NCBI GenBank assembly: GCA_947473305.1
Contig: CANJCB010000007.1
Coordinates: forward strand, 1-64,000
DNA: 64,000 bases
Direction: 5' to 3'
Source: Rhodospirillales bacterium
GTDB taxonomy: Bacteria > Pseudomonadota > Alphaproteobacteria > ATCC43930 > CGMCC-115725
In this document: piece by piece, positions 21,878 to 32,479 of the stretch
Numbering within the stretch: position 1 is the first letter of the stretch
How the letters are laid out: each line of letters opens with the position of its first letter
Notes under the pieces: generated by a model
Database searches by the model: none
Told to the model about the DNA's origin: nothing
Seen by the model: the letters and a program-made list of their open reading frames with translations, nothing else
Translations under genes and position numbers: made by a program

Positions 21878-22285
21878 ATGAGACGGAACACCCCAAAGAG
21901 ACGTGCACGACGCTTCGGCCTTTGGCTGGGGCTGGTCGCGCTCGCCATCCAGGGGATCTTCCCGTTCCTGCTTGCGGCCGAACTGCGCGCGGCGAGCTTT
22001 GCCGAAGACATGGCGGTTTTCTGCCAAGTCGATAATGGGACCGGTTCCGATCAGGCCGGCGGCGGCATGCAGCCGATGCAGGGGCACGATCATGTCCACT
22101 GCCCGATCTGCCTCGGCCTCCAGGCGGGAGGGCCGTTCCTGCAAGCGGATGCACCGGCTCTCCTCCTGCCGGCATTTGCAGGACCGGCTCATGCCATCCT
22201 CGCCGCTACGGCGCTTGCCCCGGCCTCCTACGCTCTCGCCTATCGATCCCGCGCTCCGCCTTTCCAGGGCTCATCCACCATCTGA
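21878..22285 (+). CDS. DUF2946-like protein, probable copper-linked membrane protein
   Basis: The 135-residue protein has a basic N-terminus, one hydrophobic helix (LWLGLVALAIQGIFPFLLA) and a HDHVHCPICLGLQ motif, the His/Cys-rich signature of DUF2946 proteins. A Met-rich GGGMQPMQGHDHVH stretch could bind copper. Family function is not established. It begins a set with copC, copD, PCuAC and SCO genes, which supports a role in copper handling. Confidence 0.75.
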   Translation: MRRNTPKRRARRFGLWLGLVALAIQGIFPFLLAAELRAASFAEDMAVFCQVDNGTGSDQAGGGMQPMQGHDHVHCPICLGLQAGGPFLQADAPALLLPAFAGPAHAILAATALAPASYALAYRSRAPPFQGSSTI

Positions 22286-22346
22286 CGACCTGATCGCCGG
22301 CAAGGCTCGCCTTGTCCTGCGCGTCCCCTGGAATTGGAGTTTCATC

Positions 22347-22730
22347 ATGATCCGCCTTCGCACGCTTTTTGCCGCCCTCGCGGTATTCCTCGCCCTGGGC
22401 ATGGGCGTCGCCTTCGCCCACGCCCATCTCTCCCGTTCGGCCCCCGCCGCCGACAGCACGGCTTCGGTCGCGCCGAAGGAGATCCGCCTCTGGTTCACCC
22501 GGACGCTGGAGCCCAATCTTTCGTCGCTGGAAGTGACGGATGCCACCGGTCATTCGGTGGCCCAGGGCAAGATGCGTCTCGACCCCGAGGACGCCAAGCA
22601 AATGGTCCTCGCGCTGACGGCGCTGAAGGCAGGGAGCTACAAGGTCGCCTGGAAGGCCGTCTCGGTCGACAGCCACACCACCAACGGCGACTTCGCCTTC
22701 ACCGTGGCCCAGGGCGCCGCCCAGAACTAG
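22347..22730 (+). CDS. copC: Copper resistance protein CopC
   Basis: A 127-residue periplasmic protein with signal peptide (cleaved after AFA) and mature start HAHLSRSAPAADS, in which the N-terminal His is a copper ligand. It has the CopC beta-sandwich and the C-terminal VDSHTTNGDFAFTV with its conserved D-x-H. It starts at ATG 22347 behind GGAG and precedes copD by 9 bp. The frame continues upstream but overlaps the DUF2946 gene, so the longer start is rejected. Confidence 0.94.
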   Translation: MIRLRTLFAALAVFLALGMGVAFAHAHLSRSAPAADSTASVAPKEIRLWFTRTLEPNLSSLEVTDATGHSVAQGKMRLDPEDAKQMVLALTALKAGSYKVAWKAVSVDSHTTNGDFAFTVAQGAAQN

Positions 22731-22739
22731 GCCGATATC

Positions 22740-24299
22740 ATGGACCTGATGGCGGTTTCCCGCGCCATCCACTTCGCCGCTCTCATGCTGCCGGCGGGCG
22801 CCTGGACCTTCATGGTCCTGGTGGCCCGGACGGCGGTCGGAGCGGCGATGCGGCGCGTCCTGGAAATGCTGGCCTGGACAGGGCTCGCGGCGGGTCTCGC
22901 CTCGGGCCTCGTCTGGCTGCTGCTCCAGGCCAGTTCCATGACCGGGATCCCGTCGGAAGCGATCCTGTCGGACGGAACCGCGCTCACTGTGCTGACCCAT
23001 ACCCGCTTCGGCACGGTCTGGGAATTTCGGGGGGTCCTCGGCCTGGCGCTTGCCGGCTTCATGCTGCTGCGCCCCGGCCGCCGCTGGGTCGACGTGACGA
23101 TCCTCGCTCTGAGCGCGGGGCTACTGGGCAGCATCGCCTGGAGCGGGCACGCGAGCGCCGACGACGATCCGCTTCACCTCGGCGCGGATATGATCCATCT
23201 CCTGGTGGCAGGAGCCTGGCTCGGCTCCCTGCCCCCGCTCATCCTCGCCTTGGGCCGCCAGACGGCTCAGTCGGAAACCCTCGCCCTGGTCAGGCGTTTT
23301 TCCACCCTGGGCGTGATCTCGGTTGGAACCCTGATCGCGACGGGGATCGTCAACAGCCTTGTGTTGGTCGGCACGCTACCGGCATTGGTCGGCACGCCCT
23401 ATGGCCGGATCCTCATAGCCAAAGTCCTGCTTTTTATCGCCATGGTGCTGATCGCCTCGATCAACCGGCTTCGGCTGACCCCGGCCCTCGCGGGCAAGGA
23501 TTGGCAGCGGGCAGCGGGACGATTACGGCGCAACGCGCTGGCGGAATGTCTGCTGGGCCTCGGCGTTCTTGCGCTCGTCGGCGTCCTCGGCACCCTCCCG
23601 CCCGGCGCGCATGAGCAGCCGTGGTGGCCTTTCCCGAGCAGGCTCAGCCTTGGCGCTGTCGAAGCCCTGCCGGATCTTCGCAACGAAGCCATCGCCTGGA
23701 TGGCCTTGGCGCTGCTGGGGCTTTGCGCCTTCGTCCTTGCCTGGGCGAAAGGCAAGCGCTGGCTCTGGGGAGCGCCGCTGGGGATAGCCCTCTGTCTCCT
23801 GGGCAGCTGGAACCTCATGCCGCTCGTCTCCGGGGAAGCCTATCCCACCAGCTTCTATGGTCAGACCGAGGCTTTTACCGCCGCGTCGCTCCGGCGAGGC
23901 GAGGCGACCTACCGGCAGAATTGCGCGAATTGCCATGGCCCCGAAGGGCGCGGCGACGGGCCGGCCTTTCAGGCGCTGCGCATCCCCCCGGCGGATCTCA
24001 CGGCCGAGCATCTCTTCGATCATAGCGACGGCGACCTCTTCTGGTGGATCAGCCGGGGAATGGGCGACGATCTGATGCCGGGTTTCGCGGATGTCCTCCC
24101 GGAAGCAGGTCGCTGGGACCTGATCAATTTCCTCCAGGCGCGCGCTTCGGGCGTCTTGGCAAGCGACATGACCGCCGAGGTCACCGCCTTTCCCGCGCCC
24201 CTCGCCCCCGATTTCAGCTTCGAAGCGGAGGGCCGGGAAACGACCTTGTTGGTGGAGGCCGCCAAAGGGGGGGGCTCTGGTCGCCTTTTCCGGCGATGA
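22740..24299 (+). CDS. copD: CopD copper transporter fused to cytochrome c domain
   Basis: The 519-residue membrane protein begins with a CopD domain of about eight helices (AVSRAIHFAALMLPAGAWTF, LVVGTLPALVGTPYGRIL). A c-type cytochrome domain with the haem site CANCHGPEGRGDG follows at about residue 395, with a Met in GDDLMPGF. The frame ends shortly after an eight-G run (24267-24274). With seven Gs, the frame would continue into a redoxin-like tail, so the gene is probably longer or was. The CopD and cytochrome parts are intact, so a functional product is still plausible. Confidence 0.85.
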   Translation: MDLMAVSRAIHFAALMLPAGAWTFMVLVARTAVGAAMRRVLEMLAWTGLAAGLASGLVWLLLQASSMTGIPSEAILSDGTALTVLTHTRFGTVWEFRGVLGLALAGFMLLRPGRRWVDVTILALSAGLLGSIAWSGHASADDDPLHLGADMIHLLVAGAWLGSLPPLILALGRQTAQSETLALVRRFSTLGVISVGTLIATGIVNSLVLVGTLPALVGTPYGRILIAKVLLFIAMVLIASINRLRLTPALAGKDWQRAAGRLRRNALAECLLGLGVLALVGVLGTLPPGAHEQPWWPFPSRLSLGAVEALPDLRNEAIAWMALALLGLCAFVLAWAKGKRWLWGAPLGIALCLLGSWNLMPLVSGEAYPTSFYGQTEAFTAASLRRGEATYRQNCANCHGPEGRGDGPAFQALRIPPADLTAEHLFDHSDGDLFWWISRGMGDDLMPGFADVLPEAGRWDLINFLQARASGVLASDMTAEVTAFPAPLAPDFSFEAEGRETTLLVEAAKGGGSGRLFRR

Positions 24300-24578
24300 G
24301 ATCCGGATCGATCGTCCGGGCCGCGTGTCTGTGATCTTTCCCATGAATTCTGAGATTCGCGCGGCCTATCGTCTCTTCGAAAGGCGCAACCAATCGGACC
24401 CGCTTCCCGCTGCGGCCCCGGAGATCGCCTTTCTCATCGACCGCGCCGGGATGATCCGGGCACGCTGGTCGCCCGGCGACGAGCCCGATTGGGGCGACAA
24501 AAATGTCGTGGCGAAGAGATGCGGCAGATGGATGCCATGCCGCTTAAACCCCGGATATCTTCGGGGCATCGGCATTGA
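24300..24578 (+). pseudogene. Detached redoxin-like tail of the CopD protein
   Basis: Removing one G from 24267-24274 lets copD read on as ALVAFSGDEIRI, then SEIRAAYRLFERRNQSD, then EIAFLIDRAGMIRARW, which looks like the end of an AhpC/TSA- or SCO-like redoxin domain. Near 24513 a second slip, one missing base, shifts again to MRQMDAMPLKPRISSGHRH and a stop at 24576-24578, a His-rich tail. The domain also looks shortened at its start. Either two sequence errors or true decay explains this. Confidence 0.6.
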
Positions 24579-24606
24579 CACCCGAAACGAGCGACAGGAG
24601 ACAGGA

Positions 24607-25116
24607 ATGCTCAGAACCTTGATCGCGGCGATCTTGCTCACCATGACCGCCGGGCTTGCCGTGGCCCAGCAGACAGACGGGGTCCGCGTCAGCGACCCTT
24701 GGGCGAGAGCGACGCCGGGCCGTGCGCCTAACGGAGCCGCCTACCTGACCCTCGTCAATCCGGGCGTCGGCGCCGACCGCCTCGTTGCCGTCTCCACCCC
24801 CGCCGCGGAAAAGGCTGAGATTCATGAAGTGATCATGGAGAAGGGCGTCATGCAGATGCGCCCCGCCGGCCCCCTGACCATCGATGCCGGTAAGACCGTG
24901 GTGCTGAAGCCCGGCGGCTATCACCTGATGCTGATGGGGCTGAAGCAGCCTTTGAAGGCAGGCGACACGCTGCCTCTGACCCTCACTTTCGAGAAAGCCG
25001 GAGTACGGCAAGTGGCAGCCCCCATCGGCGCGGCAGGCGCCATGGGGCCGGCCGGCGGTCCCACCGCCGGCGCCGACCCCCATGCCGGCCACGACATGAG
25101 CCAGCACAAGCCATGA
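24607..25116 (+). CDS. Periplasmic copper chaperone PCu(A)C
   Basis: A 169-residue secreted protein with signal peptide (LIAAILLTMTAGLAVAQ) and the PCuAC domain: VRVSDPWARATPGRAPNGAAYLTL, HEVIMEKGVMQMRP and LKPGGYHLMLMGLKQPL. The H-x10-M-x21-H-x-M copper site is represented by these His and Met residues. A C-terminal His/Met-rich tail (DPHAGHDMSQH) adds possible ligands. It delivers Cu(I) to the CuA site of cytochrome oxidase, with the SCO protein that follows and overlaps by 4 bp. Confidence 0.92.
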   Translation: MLRTLIAAILLTMTAGLAVAQQTDGVRVSDPWARATPGRAPNGAAYLTLVNPGVGADRLVAVSTPAAEKAEIHEVIMEKGVMQMRPAGPLTIDAGKTVVLKPGGYHLMLMGLKQPLKAGDTLPLTLTFEKAGVRQVAAPIGAAGAMGPAGGPTAGADPHAGHDMSQHKP

Positions 25117-25736
25117 GAAAACGCCGCTCCCGCCTCCAGACCTCGCGCCGGCTCCTCTGGATCGCGGCGGGCGCCATCATTGTCGTCGCCCTGGTGGCGG
25201 GCCTCGAACGATGGATCTCCGGCATCGGTCCGCAGCCCGGAGCGGCCCAGGCGATCGGCGGCCCCTTCTCGCTGATCGACCAGGAGGGGCGCCGGGTCAC
25301 CGATCGGGAATTCCGGGGCAAATGGATGCTCGTTTATTTCGGCTATACTCGCTGCCCGGACGCCTGCCCCACCACCCTCAACGAGGTGGCGGGCGCGCTG
25401 GAAAAGCTGGGACCGCTCGCCGACCGGCTGCAGCCTCTCTTCATCACGGTCGATCCGGCCCGCGACACCGCGGCCGAGCTGACGTCCTACACCAAAGCCT
25501 TCGACACCCGCATCCTGGGCCTCACCGGGAGCCCGGCCGAAATCGCCCAGGCGGCCACCGCCTATCGGATCACCTTCGCCCGCCACGAGATGCCCCAGGT
25601 CAGCGATTACGCCATGGACCATACCTCGGTCCTGACGCTTCTCGACGCTTCCGGGCGTTTCGTCATCCGTTTTGGCGATCAGATCGGCCAGGACCGCCTC
25701 GCCGAGAAGTTACGCGCTTTCCTCGAAAAGGGATGA
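25113..25736 (+). CDS. SCO-family copper protein for cytochrome oxidase assembly
   Basis: The 207-residue membrane-anchored thioredoxin-fold protein has an N-terminal helix (LLWIAAGAIIVVALVAGL) and the SCO copper motif YFGYTRCPDACPTTL, with CxxxC. The third ligand is His in MDHTSVLTLLD. It helps load CuA of cytochrome c oxidase. It overlaps the PCuAC gene by 4 bp, completing the copper set begun at 21878. Confidence 0.94.
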   Translation: MRKRRSRLQTSRRLLWIAAGAIIVVALVAGLERWISGIGPQPGAAQAIGGPFSLIDQEGRRVTDREFRGKWMLVYFGYTRCPDACPTTLNEVAGALEKLGPLADRLQPLFITVDPARDTAAELTSYTKAFDTRILGLTGSPAEIAQAATAYRITFARHEMPQVSDYAMDHTSVLTLLDASGRFVIRFGDQIGQDRLAEKLRAFLEKG

Positions 25737-25740
25737 GCGG

Positions 25741-27960
25741 TCAGACGGGCGCGCGCTGCGTCAGCACGGCGGAAGCCGGCGGGAAGACCACGGTGGCAAC
25801 CGTGCCATGGCCGACCTCGCTTTTCAGGACGAGCCTACCCCCGTGGAGCTTGACCAGCCGGTCGCAGACGGCGAGCCCCAGACCCGTTCCCTCGTGCCGC
25901 CGGCGGTGGCCGGTCGCGGCCTGGAAAAACGGTTCGGTCACCCGCTTCAGATCCTTTTCGCCGATCCCGATCCCCGTATCGTGGACCTCGATCAGGGTTT
26001 CCAGGTTCGCCACCCGCGAAATCCGTAACGTGATCAGGCCGCCGGGCGGCGTGAATTTGATCGCATTGCTCAAGAGGTTCAGCAGGACCTGTTGGATACG
26101 CTGGACATCGCCTCGGACCACGGGCGGAGGGTCCGGCAGATCCAGGCTAAGGGTGAGGGTTGCGTCCCTGGCCTGCTGTTGCACCAGACGGACCACGCCT
26201 CTGGCGACAGGCCCGAGTTCGACATCCTCGATGTCCAAAGTCAGCTTGCCGGCCTCCGCCTTCGCGAAGTCGAGGACCTCGCTGATGATGGAAAGCAGCA
26301 GCCTGCCGCTGGCGTTGATATCCCCAGCATATTCCTTGTAAACGGGTTTCCCGACGGCTCCGAACATCTCGCCCTGGATCACTTCGGAGAAACCGATGAT
26401 GGCATTCAGCGGCGTGCGCAGTTCGTGGCTCATGGTGCTCAGGAATTCGGATTTCGCCCGATTGGCCGCCTCGGCCAGTTGCTGCGCGCGCTTCAACTCG
26501 GTGACGTCGGTGCGCACGCCCACGATGCCATTGTTGCTGGTCGGCCGTTCACTGATCTGGAGCCAGCGTCCGTCCCCCAGTTGAACCTGATTCTGCAAAC
26601 CGTCGAGGCTTCGGTGCCGCCTCACCCGCTCGGCGACCCACCTTTCCGGATCGTTGGCGAATTCGGGATCGATGACCTCGCCCTTGGCGATCGAGGCCCG
26701 CACCAGATCCTCGAAGCGCCAGCCCGCGATCTCCTCCAGGCTGTGAAATTCGGTGAAGGTTTCGGCATATTTGCGGTTGCAGAGGATCAGCCGGTCGTCG
26801 GCGTCGAAGAGCCCGAAAGCGTCCGGAATGCTTTCCATCGCATCGATCAGCACGGCCCGGCTTTCCCGAGCCTCCGCGAGCGACTGGTCGAGCGCCTGTT
26901 CCACCCGCCGTCGCCCCCGGGCCATCAGGAAGGTCAGTATGCCGAGCCCCAGGATCATGACGATCACGAGCGCGGCGCGGGCCAGGAAGGTTCCCGTATT
27001 CTCCAACCGTTCCGCATAGACCACATCCAGGTTCTGGATCATGTTCGCGACCAGCGGGAAGGACTCGACCGGCTTGCGCGTGATGAGACGCGGCATGGTC
27101 TCGCCGGGCGCCGCGGCACGGAAGTTCGAACTCAGCACGGTCCGGCCCGACGGAAAATCCTTCAAGCCCTGAAAGGTCGGATCGCTCGCATAAGAACGGC
27201 CCATTGCCCCGTCGGAACGGGGATAGCGCGCCAGCAGAACCCCGTCCTCCCGGAAGAGCGAGAAAGCCGTTCCCTTGTTCGCCCTGATCTTCTGGAAAAA
27301 TTCCTCGAAGAAGGAAATCTTGAAGCCCGCGAGAACGAGGCCCACCAACTGCCCATCGGCATTGTGGATGCCGCGCGTGAGAAAAAAGGTCCAGGTGCCA
27401 TTGCCTCGGTTCTGCACGGGCTGGCTGATGAAGACATCGCTGGGCCTGCCCGACGTGTGGGCAATGAAATAGTCCCGATCGATAATATTTATGGGCGGAA
27501 AAGGCGGGTGGGCGCGGGTGTAGTTGAAAACATCGCCATCGGTGTCGATCAGGGAAATGACTTCGAGCTGGGGTATGCCCTTCATCCGCTCGACGAGCCG
27601 CTGATAAAGGTCATGGCCCGACAGACGTTCGCGAAATTCCCGCGGCGTCTGCGCATTAGCCGCCTTTGCGTCCTCCGCGACGGAATCGAGGATGACATTG
27701 ACCGCCGTGAAGGACTGCCTGATCTGTTCAGAGATGACGGTCGTGAGATTTTCCTGCTCGCGCATCGCCTGGGCGAGCGCGGCGTCATGCTCGCGGATCG
27801 TCACCCGCCACGAGCCGAAAGCGAAGGCGAGGCTCGTCACCACGGCGGTGATGAGGATCATCCCGCCGATATGGCCTCCCCAATCGAAAAGCCGGCTGCG
27901 CGGCAATCTGAAATTGACCACCGGCCTTTTCCCTCCGATCGTCTCGCGACAATCGCTCAT
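25741..27960 (-). CDS. Membrane sensor histidine kinase with Cache and PAS domains
   Basis: From ATG 27960 the protein has 739 residues; ATG 28005 adds 15 more. Two membrane helices bracket a large periplasmic dCache-like domain (about residues 55-320: NIIDRDYFIAHTSGRPSDVFIS, GLVLAGFKISFFEEF). Then come a PAS domain (SIPDAFGLFDADDRLILCNRKYAE), HisKA (FLSTMSHELRTPLNAIIGFSEV) and HATPase (LLNLLSNAIKFTP, TGIGIGEKDL, GTGLGLAV). No receiver domain or response regulator is adjacent, so it is an orphan. It is convergent with the SCO gene. Confidence 0.92.
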   Translation of the reverse strand: MSDCRETIGGKRPVVNFRLPRSRLFDWGGHIGGMILITAVVTSLAFAFGSWRVTIREHDAALAQAMREQENLTTVISEQIRQSFTAVNVILDSVAEDAKAANAQTPREFRERLSGHDLYQRLVERMKGIPQLEVISLIDTDGDVFNYTRAHPPFPPINIIDRDYFIAHTSGRPSDVFISQPVQNRGNGTWTFFLTRGIHNADGQLVGLVLAGFKISFFEEFFQKIRANKGTAFSLFREDGVLLARYPRSDGAMGRSYASDPTFQGLKDFPSGRTVLSSNFRAAAPGETMPRLITRKPVESFPLVANMIQNLDVVYAERLENTGTFLARAALVIVMILGLGILTFLMARGRRRVEQALDQSLAEARESRAVLIDAMESIPDAFGLFDADDRLILCNRKYAETFTEFHSLEEIAGWRFEDLVRASIAKGEVIDPEFANDPERWVAERVRRHRSLDGLQNQVQLGDGRWLQISERPTSNNGIVGVRTDVTELKRAQQLAEAANRAKSEFLSTMSHELRTPLNAIIGFSEVIQGEMFGAVGKPVYKEYAGDINASGRLLLSIISEVLDFAKAEAGKLTLDIEDVELGPVARGVVRLVQQQARDATLTLSLDLPDPPPVVRGDVQRIQQVLLNLLSNAIKFTPPGGLITLRISRVANLETLIEVHDTGIGIGEKDLKRVTEPFFQAATGHRRRHEGTGLGLAVCDRLVKLHGGRLVLKSEVGHGTVATVVFPPASAVLTQRAPV

Positions 27961-28184
27961 GCGCGGCAATGGAATCAAGTCGTGACAGACTTTAATAGAC
28001 CACAATAAATAACGATGGTCTTAACGGCCGGAGCATGGTCGATGTGCCTTCCGACAGACAGGAAGGCAAGCTGCCGCCCTCTGTGACATCCCGCCCAATG
28101 GGAAAGTAAGGAGCCGCCGGTTGCGGAGTCCCTGGCCGGGGTGATATGCCCTGCGCCATCTTGTGAATGGTCAACCCAAGGGGA

Positions 28185-28763
28185 ATGCCGGTGGTCGAAA
28201 TCAGGAAGATCTACACCCAGATCGAGCGCGTCGAAACCGAAGCCGGCAAGCCGCAGGATCCTCCCCTGGTCAAGGTCGCCGTCGTCGCGATCATCAAGAA
28301 CCCCTATGCGGGCAAATACGTCGAAGATCTCTCCGAGATGACCAAGGCCAGCGTCGGCCTGGGACAGCGGATCACCAAGATGGCGGCCGAAGCCCTCGGC
28401 TATCCGGCGGAAAGCTACGGCAAGGGTGCGATCATCGGCACCAACGGCGAGCAGGAGCATGGCGTCGCCTATCTCACCACCGCCTTCGGCAATGTGCTGC
28501 GGGAATCGATCGGCGGGGGCATCGCCTGGATCTCCTCCATGACCAAGCGCGGCGGCCCCGGCACCACGATCGACGTGCCGCTGGCCCATAAGGACGCGCT
28601 CTATGTGCGCTCCCATTACGACGGGGTAACCATCACCCTCCATGACGCCCCGCTGCCGGATGAGATCGCGGTCATCTGCTGCGTCGCCAGCCGCGGCCGC
28701 CCGAACCATCGCCTCGGCGGCCTTGCAGCCAAGGACATGCAGGGGAAGGACGGCCTGGTATGA
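28185..28763 (+). CDS. DUF1185 'amino acid synthesis' family protein
   Basis: A 192-residue protein of the AA_synth family (DUF1185), whose biochemical role is not established. Characteristic segments are VEIRKIYTQIERVETEAGK, VAVVAIIKNPYAGKYVEDLSE, GYPAESYGKGAIIGTNGEQEHG and DVPLAHKDALYVRSHYDG. AAGGGG lies right before the ATG at 28185, so GTG 28191 is a possible alternative. The stop overlaps the amidohydrolase start by 4 bp, the first of five linked genes. It is cytosolic by sequence. Confidence 0.87.
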   Translation: MPVVEIRKIYTQIERVETEAGKPQDPPLVKVAVVAIIKNPYAGKYVEDLSEMTKASVGLGQRITKMAAEALGYPAESYGKGAIIGTNGEQEHGVAYLTTAFGNVLRESIGGGIAWISSMTKRGGPGTTIDVPLAHKDALYVRSHYDGVTITLHDAPLPDEIAVICCVASRGRPNHRLGGLAAKDMQGKDGLV

Positions 28764-30001
28764 GCGGCCCCACCGGACATAGCCACGGCTCCATGGATGT
28801 CGTCTTCACCAATATCGGGACGATCATCACCGGCGACTGGCGGAACCCTTTCGCCCCAGGCGACGAACTCTCCTTCTCGAACGGCAAGATCAAGGCCGTC
28901 GGCAAGGTCGATCAATCCGTCAAGGACGCCGCCGATCTGGTGGTCGACCTGGGTGGCATGACCGTCATCCCCGGCCTCATCGACAGCCATGTCCATACCA
29001 CCTTCGGCGACTATACCCCGCGCCAGAAGACCGTGGGCTTCCTGGAGAGCTATCTCCATGGCGGCATCACCTCGGTCATCTCGGCGAGCGAGATCCATGT
29101 GCCGGGCCGGCCGAGCGATGTCGCGGGCATCAAGGCCCTGGCGCTCGCCGCCCAGCGCAGCTTCCTGAACTATCGGCCGGGCGGCATGCGGGTCTATGCG
29201 GGCTCCCTCATCCTGGAGCCGGGCCTCGTCGAGAAGGATTTCGCCGAGCTTGAGGAACAGGGCGTCTGGCTCGCCAAGGTGGGCTTCGGCGCTTTCAGCA
29301 ATCCCTCCGACGTGGCTCCGATCGTCGCCTGGGCGCGCAAGCACAAGTTCAAGGTGATGTGCCATACAGGCGGCGCCTCGATCCCGGGATCGCAGCCGAT
29401 TTCCGCCGATCACCTCATGCGCATCCAGCCCGATATCGCGGGCCATGTGAACGGCGGTCCCATCGCCATGTCAGATACGGACATGCATCGCATCGTCAAG
29501 GAAACGACGATGGCGTTGCAGATCGCCCAGGCCGGCAATATCCGCAGTTCCATCCTCTGCGCGCGCCTTGCCGAGGAAACCGGCAACTTCGACCGGCTCC
29601 TGATGTCGAGCGACACGCCGACCGGGACCGGCATGATGCCGCTTGGCACGATCAAGACCCTGACCGAGATGTGCACCCTGGCCGGCATCGCGCCGGAAAA
29701 GGTCCTGGCCTGCGCCACGGGCAATGTCGCCAAGATCTATGGCTTCAACTCGGGCTTCCTCGCGCCCGGCAAGGACGCCGACATTACGGTGATCGACGTC
29801 TCCCACGGCAGCATGGCGGACAACGCGCTCGACGGCATGGCGATCGGCGACATTCCGGCGATCGGAGCGGTCATCTCGGGCGGCGTGCCGCGCTTCCTCT
29901 ACAAGAGCCGCAACACGCCGCCGCCCCTGCGCAAGATGACGATCCTGCAGAACCGCTGTCTCCAGACCTTCATCGAAGACACGCCTTATCACTGCTGCTG
30001 A
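28760..30001 (+). CDS. Enamidase-like amidohydrolase
   Basis: The 413-residue protein belongs to the amidohydrolase superfamily and resembles enamidase, the enzyme that opens the lactam 6-oxotetrahydronicotinate in anaerobic nicotinate breakdown. Metal-site features are IDSHVHTTFGD, the Lys in LAKVGFGAF (expected to bridge the metals as carbamate), CHTGGASIPGSQ and LLMSSDTPTGTGM with its catalytic Asp. A hydrophobic cap follows, and the C-terminus ends in HCC. The likely reaction is ring or amide hydrolysis; the actual substrate is unknown. It is coupled to DUF1185 by a 4-bp overlap and followed by the UbiX-like gene. Confidence 0.88.
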   Translation: MSGPTGHSHGSMDVVFTNIGTIITGDWRNPFAPGDELSFSNGKIKAVGKVDQSVKDAADLVVDLGGMTVIPGLIDSHVHTTFGDYTPRQKTVGFLESYLHGGITSVISASEIHVPGRPSDVAGIKALALAAQRSFLNYRPGGMRVYAGSLILEPGLVEKDFAELEEQGVWLAKVGFGAFSNPSDVAPIVAWARKHKFKVMCHTGGASIPGSQPISADHLMRIQPDIAGHVNGGPIAMSDTDMHRIVKETTMALQIAQAGNIRSSILCARLAEETGNFDRLLMSSDTPTGTGMMPLGTIKTLTEMCTLAGIAPEKVLACATGNVAKIYGFNSGFLAPGKDADITVIDVSHGSMADNALDGMAIGDIPAIGAVISGGVPRFLYKSRNTPPPLRKMTILQNRCLQTFIEDTPYHCC

Positions 30002-30002
30002 G

Positions 30003-30569
30003 ATGAGCGATCCCCGGCTGATCGTCGGCATCGACGCCTCGCCCGGGGTGACCTACGGCGTGCGGCTCGCAGCCCTGCTCGCGGAAATGGGCATCGCGAG
30101 CGATATCGTTGTCGCGGGCGATGCCAAGCCTTTCTTCGAAGTGGAAGGGATAGCGGCGCTTCCAGCCACGAGAGCGGGCGACGAGGTCCTCGAAGCGAGT
30201 CCCGGCTTCCAGGGCATGATCCTGGCCCCCTGCGGACCTGAGACCTTGGCGCGGATCGCCGCAGGACAAGCGGAAAGCCTCCTGGCCCGCATGGCGAACG
30301 CCACACTTGCCCAGGGTCGCCGGCTGGTGGTGCTGGACCTGGCGTCGCGGCTCGATCTGCCGCATATCCGCCATATGGAACAGGCGACGCAGCGGGGCGC
30401 CATCGTCTATCCGCCGGTCCCGGCTTTCTATGCGCGGCCGAAGGATCTCGACGAGATGATCGCCCATACGCTGGGCCGCGTGCTCGATCTTTTCGACATC
30501 GACAGCGGCACGGTTCGGCGCTGGCGGGAAACATCGGGAAAGTCCCGGCGCGGCAATCAAGCCGGTTGA
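30003..30569 (+). CDS. UbiX-like flavoprotein with altered active-site motifs
   Basis: The 188-residue protein matches the UbiX/Pad1 fold: GVTYGVRLAALLAEMG near the N-terminus, LAPCGPETLARIAAG, then RGAIVYPPVPAFYARPKDLDEM and GRVLDLFDID. Known UbiX enzymes make prenylated FMN for UbiD decarboxylases. Here the usual PCS-x-KT reads PCGPET and the R-E-T-P loop is replaced (VVLDLASRLDLPH), while the Tyr in PAFY remains. It may bind a flavin but not prenylate it. No UbiD gene is present. It is 1 bp after the amidohydrolase. Confidence 0.82.
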   Translation: MSDPRLIVGIDASPGVTYGVRLAALLAEMGIASDIVVAGDAKPFFEVEGIAALPATRAGDEVLEASPGFQGMILAPCGPETLARIAAGQAESLLARMANATLAQGRRLVVLDLASRLDLPHIRHMEQATQRGAIVYPPVPAFYARPKDLDEMIAHTLGRVLDLFDIDSGTVRRWRETSGKSRRGNQAG

Positions 30570-30625
30570 CAAGGACAGCCTTTCTTCCTCAGTTGGAGTC
30601 CTGCCACTCCATCGGGTTTTTCTGA

Positions 30626-31588
30626 ATGTCCGCTGCCTCGACCGATCCCCTTATCGACGTAGAGCTGACCGCGATCAGCACCGCCGCCGACGATACGAAA
30701 CTCTATGAGTTGCGCCGCACAGACGGCCAGCCAATGCCGCCGGTCGAGCCCGGCGCGCATATCGACATCTACCTGCCCTCGGGCCTCATTCGTCAATATT
30801 CGCTCACGAGCGCCGAAGGGATCACCGACCGCTATGTGATCGGTGTGAAGAAGGATGCGGCGAGCCGCGGCGGCTCACGCGAGATGCACGACACGCTGAA
30901 AGTCGGCATGCGGCTCAAGATCGGCGGGCCGCGCAACAATTTCGAATTGGATGCGGCGGCCCCCCATACGGTGCTATTTGCCGGTGGCATCGGCGTCACG
31001 CCGATCTGGGCGATGGTCCAGCGCCTCGCCGCCACGAACAAGTCCTGGAAGCTCTATTTCTCCAGCCGCAACCGCAGCCAGGCGGCGTTCCTCGATGGGC
31101 TTTCCGCCCATGGGTCGAAGGTCACCCTCCATTTCGACGACGAGGCCCAGGGCAAGTTCCTGGATATGGCCGCCGCCGTCGCCTCCGCGCCCGAGGGGAC
31201 GCATTTCTACTGCTGCGGCCCCACGCCCATGCTGGAAGCTTTCCAGGAGGCGACCGCCAAGGTCCCCGTCGAGAACGTCCATCTCGAATATTTCACCAGC
31301 ACGCAGGAGGCCGCCACCGAGGGCGGCTATACCGTGGTGCTCAAGGAGAGCGGCAAGGAATTCTACGTGCCGGAAGGCAAGACGATCCTCGACGTGCTTT
31401 TGGACGCCAAGATCCCGATCAGCCATTCCTGCACCATGGGGATCTGCGGCAGTTGCGAAACCGTGGTGCTGGAAGGCATCCCCGATCACCGCGACGACTT
31501 CCTGACGCCCAAGGAAAAGGAAGCCAACAAGACAATCATGATCTGCTGCTCGGGTTCCCTGAGCCCCAAGCTGGTGCTCGATCTCTAG
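30626..31588 (+). CDS. Phthalate-dioxygenase-reductase type oxidoreductase
   Basis: The 320-residue PDR/VanB-family protein has an N-terminal flavin domain (GLIRQYSLTSAEG), an NAD domain (LFAGGIGVTPIWAM, CCGPTPMLEAF) and a C-terminal plant-type 2Fe-2S ferredoxin domain (CTMGICGSCETVVLEG, with a final Cys in MICCSGS). Such proteins pass electrons from NAD(P)H to Rieske oxygenases or P450s. No oxygenase is in this cluster, so its partner is either elsewhere or a different protein. Gene order links it to the catabolic set. Confidence 0.92.
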   Translation: MSAASTDPLIDVELTAISTAADDTKLYELRRTDGQPMPPVEPGAHIDIYLPSGLIRQYSLTSAEGITDRYVIGVKKDAASRGGSREMHDTLKVGMRLKIGGPRNNFELDAAAPHTVLFAGGIGVTPIWAMVQRLAATNKSWKLYFSSRNRSQAAFLDGLSAHGSKVTLHFDDEAQGKFLDMAAAVASAPEGTHFYCCGPTPMLEAFQEATAKVPVENVHLEYFTSTQEAATEGGYTVVLKESGKEFYVPEGKTILDVLLDAKIPISHSCTMGICGSCETVVLEGIPDHRDDFLTPKEKEANKTIMICCSGSLSPKLVLDL

Positions 31589-32479
31589 ATGGCAGCAGCT
31601 CAGGCAGCAAGGGACGCCACGGGGCCGGTCTCCCGCTTCTTCGTTTCGCAGCGGATGCGGCTCCACTACGTCGATTGGGGGAACCCCGAAGCGCCGCCGC
31701 TGCTGCTGGTCCATGGGTGGCGCGACCACAGCCGAAGCTGGGACTGGGTGGCGCCCCATTTCACCAAGGATTGGCATGTCATCGCCCCCGACCTCCAGGG
31801 TCACGGCGACAGCCAATGGTCGGGCGACGGCAATTATTCCTTCGCCGCCTATATCTACGATCTGGCGCAGCTGATCCATCAGCTGGAACTGGCACCCGTG
31901 ACGATCCTCGCCCATTCGCTCGGCGGCGAGATCTGCCTGCGCTATACCGGGCTCTTTCCCGACAACGTGCGCAAGATCGCGGCCATCGAGGGGCTGGGCA
32001 TGTCCCCCCGCATCCTCGACGAGCGCGGCGGGAAGCCTATCGCGGACCGGATGCGCGGCTGGGTCGATCATCGCCGCAGCCTCACTGCCCGGCCCGCGCG
32101 CCGCTATGCCTCGGTCGAGGAAGCGCTGCACCGCATGCAGGAAGAGAACAAGCACCTGAGCGACGAGCAGGCCCGGCATCTGACCCATTACGGGGTCAAC
32201 CAGAACGAGGACGGGACCTATAGCTGGAAGTTCGACCCTTATCTCAGGTCCTGGGCGCCCTATGAGATGACGCGGCAGGATGTCTACGACATCTGGGCTC
32301 GGATCACCTGTCCGACGCTGCTGATCTACGGCAAGGAGAGCGACGCCTCAAACCCCACGGAGGACGGCCGCTTCCAGCATTTCAAGACCGCAAACCTAGT
32401 CTGGGTGCCGGACGCCGGCCATTGGGTCCATCACGACCAGCTCGATATCCTGCTGGGTCACGCGAAGGGGTTTCTTTAG
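31589..32479 (+). CDS. Alpha/beta hydrolase
   Basis: The 296-residue enzyme has the alpha/beta-hydrolase core: LLVHGWRDHSRSWDW (oxyanion region), nucleophile Ser in ILAHSLGGEICLRY, and the catalytic His in VPDAGHWVHHDQ. The Asp lies in the segment between, probably IYGKESDAS. Family members hydrolyse esters, C-C bonds from ring cleavage, or haloacids. Its ATG directly abuts the reductase stop, so it is the fifth gene of the catabolic operon. Substrate unknown. Confidence 0.9.
   Translation: MAAAQAARDATGPVSRFFVSQRMRLHYVDWGNPEAPPLLLVHGWRDHSRSWDWVAPHFTKDWHVIAPDLQGHGDSQWSGDGNYSFAAYIYDLAQLIHQLELAPVTILAHSLGGEICLRYTGLFPDNVRKIAAIEGLGMSPRILDERGGKPIADRMRGWVDHRRSLTARPARRYASVEEALHRMQEENKHLSDEQARHLTHYGVNQNEDGTYSWKFDPYLRSWAPYEMTRQDVYDIWARITCPTLLIYGKESDASNPTEDGRFQHFKTANLVWVPDAGHWVHHDQLDILLGHAKGFL

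Follow-up and report, generated by a model that had tools for sequence, protein, structure and literature searches.

A conserved DUF1185-amidohydrolase gene pair at the core of a probable catabolic locus in a Rhodospirillales genome

The window analyzed here, the first 64 kb of contig C7 from a Rhodospirillales bacterium (genome of 4.7 Mb in 105 contigs), carries five plus-strand genes at positions 28185 to 32479. We find that this locus is built on a conserved, codiversified module of two genes, encoding a DUF1185 protein and an amidohydrolase related to enamidase, and that the cluster is probably catabolic. In our best explanation, to which we assign about an even chance, the amidohydrolase would hydrolyze a cyclic amide in the breakdown of an N-heteroaromatic compound, with the DUF1185 protein as its partner. 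This explanation is based on adjacency of the two genes across phyla, parallel trees, a metal site that is intact but has Lys in place of Glu, and recurrent catabolic neighbors. The five genes, whose family assignments in the original prediction were all borne out, are as follows.

28185..28763, plus strand: DUF1185 protein (PF06684, AA_synth; 223.9 bits, cutoff 27; longest open reading frame [ORF] from 28167)
28760..30001, plus strand: enamidase-like amidohydrolase with Lys at the Glu164 position (Amidohydro_1; phmmer match to 2VUN; homolog-backed start at 28793)
30003..30569, plus strand: UbiX-like flavoprotein that has lost prenyltransferase residues (Flavoprotein, 70 bits; TIGR00421, 111.8)
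30626..31588, plus strand: phthalate-dioxygenase reductase (PDR)-type NAD(P)H reductase (FAD_binding_6, NAD_binding_1, C-terminal plant-type 2Fe2S)
31589..32479, plus strand: alpha/beta hydrolase of a widespread alphaproteobacterial family (Abhydrolase_1)

A scan of genome contigs yielded 80 hydrolase loci in several phyla, with a DUF1185 gene adjoining the hydrolase gene in most close relatives. The two genes are neighbors in Alpha- and Betaproteobacteria, Actinomycetota, and Chloroflexota, and DUF1185 directly precedes the hydrolase on annotated plasmids of Mariluticola, Shinella, Mesorhizobium, Agrobacterium vitis, and the chloroflexote Thermomicrobium. The original prediction had suggested searching for just such a neighborhood, and the pair does recur across phyla. 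Across 385 genomes of the same class, DUF1185 was present in 35 of the 36 that encode the hydrolase family, compared to 81 overall (hypergeometric P of about 5e-26, not corrected for relatedness). Candidate DUF1185-hydrolase fusions in two genomes (G185 and G357) were ruled out, because the long open frames lie in different frames by their coordinates. In the openly available literature around the homarine, enamidase, trigonelline, pyrrole-2-carboxylate, citrazinate, and picolinate pathways, we found no paper describing the pair.

The hydrolase matches the enamidase of Eubacterium barkeri (2VUN; phmmer E = 1e-114), with homology across residues 14 to 395. Alignment to 2VUN indicates that the metal site retains the HxH pair, two further His residues, and an Asp, whereas K173 aligns with Glu164, which we take to be the bridging metal ligand of enamidase. 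This column separates the family cleanly: every one of the 47 sequences in the window's clade has Lys there, and each of the remaining 74, 2VUN among them, has Glu. In the tree, a split with a support of 100 divides the two groups. By these sequence criteria, the hydrolase is a sister of enamidase and lies outside enamidase in the strict sense. By analogy with other amidohydrolases, the Lys at this position would be carboxylated. No NCBIfam model reached its cutoff for the Lys-type family. The first His of the HxH motif is replaced by Gln in 15 of the 121 hydrolase sequences (L004 to L009, L032, and related loci). One of these frames, in L009 (genome G289), holds one TGA in frame, and DUF1185 had no match in G289. 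The hydrolase of the same-class genome G165 is identical to that of Dongia mobilis, which identifies the class as Alphaproteobacteria.

Pairing with DUF1185 follows the same division. Among loci with enough flanking sequence (38 in the window's clade and 46 in the Glu clade), DUF1185 lies within 300 bp of the hydrolase at 26 of the Lys-type loci versus 7 of the Glu-type loci. In the DUF1185 tree, the copies encoded beside a Lys-type hydrolase group together in a single clade (29 rows, support of 96), a split that parallels the hydrolase Lys clade (47 rows, support of 100). Glu-type loci (L012, L013, L016, L071 to L075, and others) often have two tandem DUF1185 genes nearby rather than one adjacent gene.

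The DUF1185 protein itself matches two solved structures, 2qtp (phmmer E = 1.7e-49) and 3byq (5.9e-25). Its AlphaFold2 model (predicted local distance difference test [pLDDT] score of 90) returned these two as its only good Foldseek matches (3byq, E = 2e-19) and no convincing enzyme of known function; the remaining top matches had template modeling scores of about 0.35 or less. At least 87 of 88 DUF1185 sequences retain the counterparts of Glu90, His93, and Arg176, which are interface residues in BB2672. The fold is chorismate-mutase-like (PMC2954203). Two family members occur in other systems: TgnF, which stimulates a late step of trigonelline breakdown, and HcdD, which is encoded in a coumarin cluster (PMC7913881).

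We compared the gene neighborhoods of 41 Lys-type loci with those of 53 Glu-type control loci; because the query families were drawn from the Lys-type loci, which favors matches there, the contrast is indicative rather than exact. Genes found predominantly at Lys-type loci encode HpaB-type monooxygenases (16/41 versus 2/53), EthD/DUF4286-like proteins (8/41 versus 0/53), FAD monooxygenases (7/41 versus 0/53), UbiD (7/41 versus 0/53), and succinate-semialdehyde dehydrogenase (7/41 versus 3/53). Molybdenum (Mo) hydroxylases are common to both types (6 Lys-type and 9 Glu-type loci). In the closest relative (G306, 65% identity), DUF1185 and the hydrolase are accompanied by a three-subunit Mo hydroxylase, with an adjoining FAD monooxygenase and three UbiD genes. 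A Caballeronia locus (L046) encodes UbiD, DUF1185, the hydrolase, an FAD monooxygenase, and UbiX, and it is the only other locus, among those examined, with DUF1185, hydrolase, and UbiX genes side by side. The Caballeronia monooxygenase is nearest to PnpA and to HspB (6-hydroxy-3-succinoylpyridine 3-monooxygenase). Liv-type transporters also recur in these catabolic clusters and are likely substrate importers. These recurrent neighbors support the catabolic role, probably on an N-heterocycle or cyclic amide, that had been proposed for the cluster.

The third gene encodes a UbiX-like protein. It scores above the cutoff of TIGR00421 (111.8; cutoff, 108.9) and below that of NF004685 (116; cutoff, 188), and it is altered at many positions that are invariant in 15 canonical homologs, in agreement with its earlier description as an altered form. 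UbiX uses Ser15, Lys129, and Arg139 in prenyl transfer; the equivalents here are P14, A103, and L113. E140, which has been proposed to protonate the leaving phosphate (PMC6541611), is replaced by A114. The protein lacks the SGASG loop and the PCS motif and has an 11-residue deletion; the equivalents of Tyr169 and Glu49 are retained. Divergence is concentrated in residues 1 to 118, which are 31 to 38% identical to canonical UbiX (canonical sequences among themselves, 60 to 77%), whereas the similarity of residues 119 to 176 (0.65) equals that of canonical proteins among themselves (0.65). A single-sequence AlphaFold2 model (pLDDT of 60) matches the UbiX fold, at a confidence too low for the active site to be informative. 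Since the nearest homologs in the 385 genomes are only about 50% identical, the altered form looks rare in this sample. The loss of the prenyl-transfer residues suggests that the protein is probably not a flavin prenyltransferase and would make no prenylated flavin. No UbiD partner is encoded on contig C7.

The last two genes are a reductase and an alpha/beta hydrolase. The reductase has the FAD, NAD, and C-terminal 2Fe2S domain order of phthalate-dioxygenase-type reductases, and its homologs adjoin Rieske oxygenases at several loci; no Rieske oxygenase lies next to it on contig C7. The alpha/beta hydrolase was detected in 57 of the 385 class genomes (E ≤ 1e-45), and the genome studied here has another copy on contig C24. 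Neither gene was linked to the DUF1185-hydrolase pair in the related loci examined. All five genes occur together at no other locus examined, so the idea of a conserved five-gene operon was rejected, and that of a single functional set is unsupported. We regard the last three genes as less conserved companions, and their link to the pair is uncertain.

Of the arrangement that the original prediction had reported, the five plus-strand ORFs stand, and so do the junctions when each ORF is taken at its longest: an overlap of 4 bp, then 1 bp, 56 bp, and 0 bp. The first junction changes with the choice of start: homologs back a DUF1185 start at 28185 (MPVVEIRK) and a hydrolase start at 28793 (MDVVFTNIGTI), and with the latter the first junction becomes a 29-bp gap. 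A terminator-like hairpin at 30594 to 30611, inside the 56-bp gap, was considered as a division of the operon. This was unsupported, because the gap folds no better than shuffled sequence and the hairpin is therefore no evidence for two transcripts. The flanks are ordinary-looking genes, with FdsD, FdhD, and an NADH-type formate dehydrogenase downstream. Upstream (window positions 22149 to 28005), genes for CopC, a CopD-cytochrome fusion, a further ORF, SCO1/SenC, and a dCache histidine kinase are grouped together.

Alternatively, the locus may be a chance assembly: the DUF1185-hydrolase pair would be real, the UbiX copy behind it decaying, and the last two genes unrelated. The absence of the five-gene combination from the other loci examined, the unlinked reductase and alpha/beta hydrolase, and the missing catalytic residues of the UbiX-like protein are what such an assembly would leave. 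The genes are, however, tightly packed on one strand, UbiD and UbiX recur in related clusters, and the UbiX-like gene still reads as an open frame with coding composition and encodes a conserved C-terminal third. We consider chance assembly rather unlikely. As regards the first two genes, it is compatible with our best explanation.

Enamidase acts on a cyclic enamide: ring opening first yields an enamine, which is then hydrolyzed to an aldehyde. By extension, the window amidohydrolase would open a lactam- or pyridone-like intermediate by C-N bond hydrolysis. The DUF1185 protein could be its physical partner or an enzyme acting on the ring-opened, enamine-like product. We place it within or directly after the ring-opening step because an enamine product needs hydrolysis, because of the chorismate-mutase-like fold, and because TgnF stimulates a late step. 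Hydroxylation and decarboxylation would be supplied by other loci of the genome. The PDR-type reductase might supply a Rieske oxygenase from another locus, and a later ester or amide might be cleaved by the alpha/beta hydrolase; we advance both roles tentatively. A stronger version, in which lactams are opened by a widespread two-component system with a lysine-type metal site, DUF1185 is its second, dedicated enzyme or subunit, and the UbiX-like protein has been rebuilt into a nonprenylating component of the same pathway, is speculative and in our judgment improbable.

Several observations weigh against a cyclic-amide module of this kind. DUF1185 is absent from the stretch examined at 11 of the 38 Lys-clade loci. 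For HcdD, no effect could be demonstrated in vitro (PMC7913881). Next to the cluster, the window encodes neither an oxygenase nor a UbiD, and it has no transporter or dedicated regulator there either. The sequence fixes no substrate, and some Lys-clade members neighbor Rieske dioxygenases, LigAB, and other aromatic genes, which makes a carbocyclic or lactone substrate possible. Such a substrate, arising as an intermediate of an aromatic pathway, would also fit the presence of DUF1185 in the coumarin cluster, coumarin being a lactone (PMC7913881). Against such a substrate, the characterized homolog, enamidase, acts on a cyclic enamide, and related clusters also contain Mo hydroxylases, isochorismatase-like hydrolases, and amidases. 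The latter three are typical of N-heterocycle pathways. On balance, we judge a lactone or carbocycle unlikely.

It is still less probable that the hydrolase is a ring-opening oxygenase on an amidohydrolase fold, like KpiC, with DUF1185 and the alpha/beta hydrolase processing a formyl-amide product. KpiC, an extradiol dioxygenase that acts on 3,4-dihydroxypyridine, belongs to the amidohydrolase family; its nearest characterized relative was enamidase, and the partners of KpiC are an alpha/beta hydrolase and an FAD_binding_3 monooxygenase (PMC7356986). The window likewise encodes an alpha/beta hydrolase, its relatives recurrently have FAD monooxygenases, and the Gln substitution described above affects the first metal His in part of the family. 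However, KpiC is only 28% identical to enamidase (PMC7356986), which the window hydrolase matches at 1e-114, and the window protein retains both His residues of HxH, the two other His residues, and the Asp. Least probable is the proposal of the structure paper that DUF1185 is a sensor or a biosynthetic amino acid enzyme, favored by nearby genes for branched-chain amino acid transport and by a hexamer that depends on salt and pH (PMC2954203): Liv-type transporters fit substrate import in these clusters, DUF1185 has codiversified with the hydrolase, and it occurs in trigonelline and coumarin clusters (PMC7913881).

We sought partner genes in the genome family by family. The original prediction had noted that an oxygenase and UbiD were lacking; this holds locally and fails genome-wide. 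The genome has 8 UbiD matches and 15 Rieske-type (PF00848) matches, all off contig C7, as well as an FAD monooxygenase homolog on contig C36 (43% identity) and an HpaB-type monooxygenase on contig C22. The latter is grouped with genes for a flavin reductase, DUF2848, a cupin, MarR, two UbiD proteins, and one UbiX. Four of these products resemble those of genes neighboring the pair in the same-family genome G389 (HpaB, 60% identity; DUF2848, 64%; cupin, 70%; MarR, 45%). A pathway divided between C7 and C22 would be a reasonable inference. The window hydrolase is nearer to its G306 counterpart than to the one in G389. The C22 UbiX (L158:16373-16978) keeps the E140 and K129 equivalents and reads APDFTAQP where canonical UbiX reads PAFY, so its Tyr169 equivalent appears lost. 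Between HpaB/flavin reductase and DUF2848 on C22 lie three tandem genes with near-identical starts (LPALLxGRLxLPVIAAPM; L158:12816-15645).

DUF1185 structures have been solved since 2007-2008, yet the function of the family is not agreed on, and codiversification with an enamidase-like hydrolase offers a direct route to testing it. The Lys/Glu split would let annotators tell true enamidases from the sister family, and the UbiX-like protein is a natural example of a prenyltransferase fold without its catalytic residues.

Compared with known systems, the locus resembles the KpiC/KpiB/KpiA system of 4-hydroxypyridine breakdown in its amidohydrolase-fold ring opener, alpha/beta hydrolase, and associated flavin monooxygenase (PMC7356986); the Kpi system is distant in sequence, uses O2-dependent chemistry, and has no DUF1185 among its listed proteins. 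The reductase shares its domain order with phthalate-dioxygenase-type reductases and differs in having no adjoining oxygenase gene. The UbiX-like protein shares the Flavoprotein fold and the C-terminal third with UbiX/Pad1, without the catalytic residues or an adjacent UbiD. Relative to enamidase, the hydrolase has Lys173 for Glu164, belongs to a separate clade, and has no nicotinate genes alongside. Finally, the DUF1185 protein shares family and fold with BB2672 (3BYQ), SPO0826 (2QTP), TgnF, and HcdD and is set apart by its partner, which is a Lys-type amidohydrolase here and TgnE or HcdE in the TgnF and HcdD systems.

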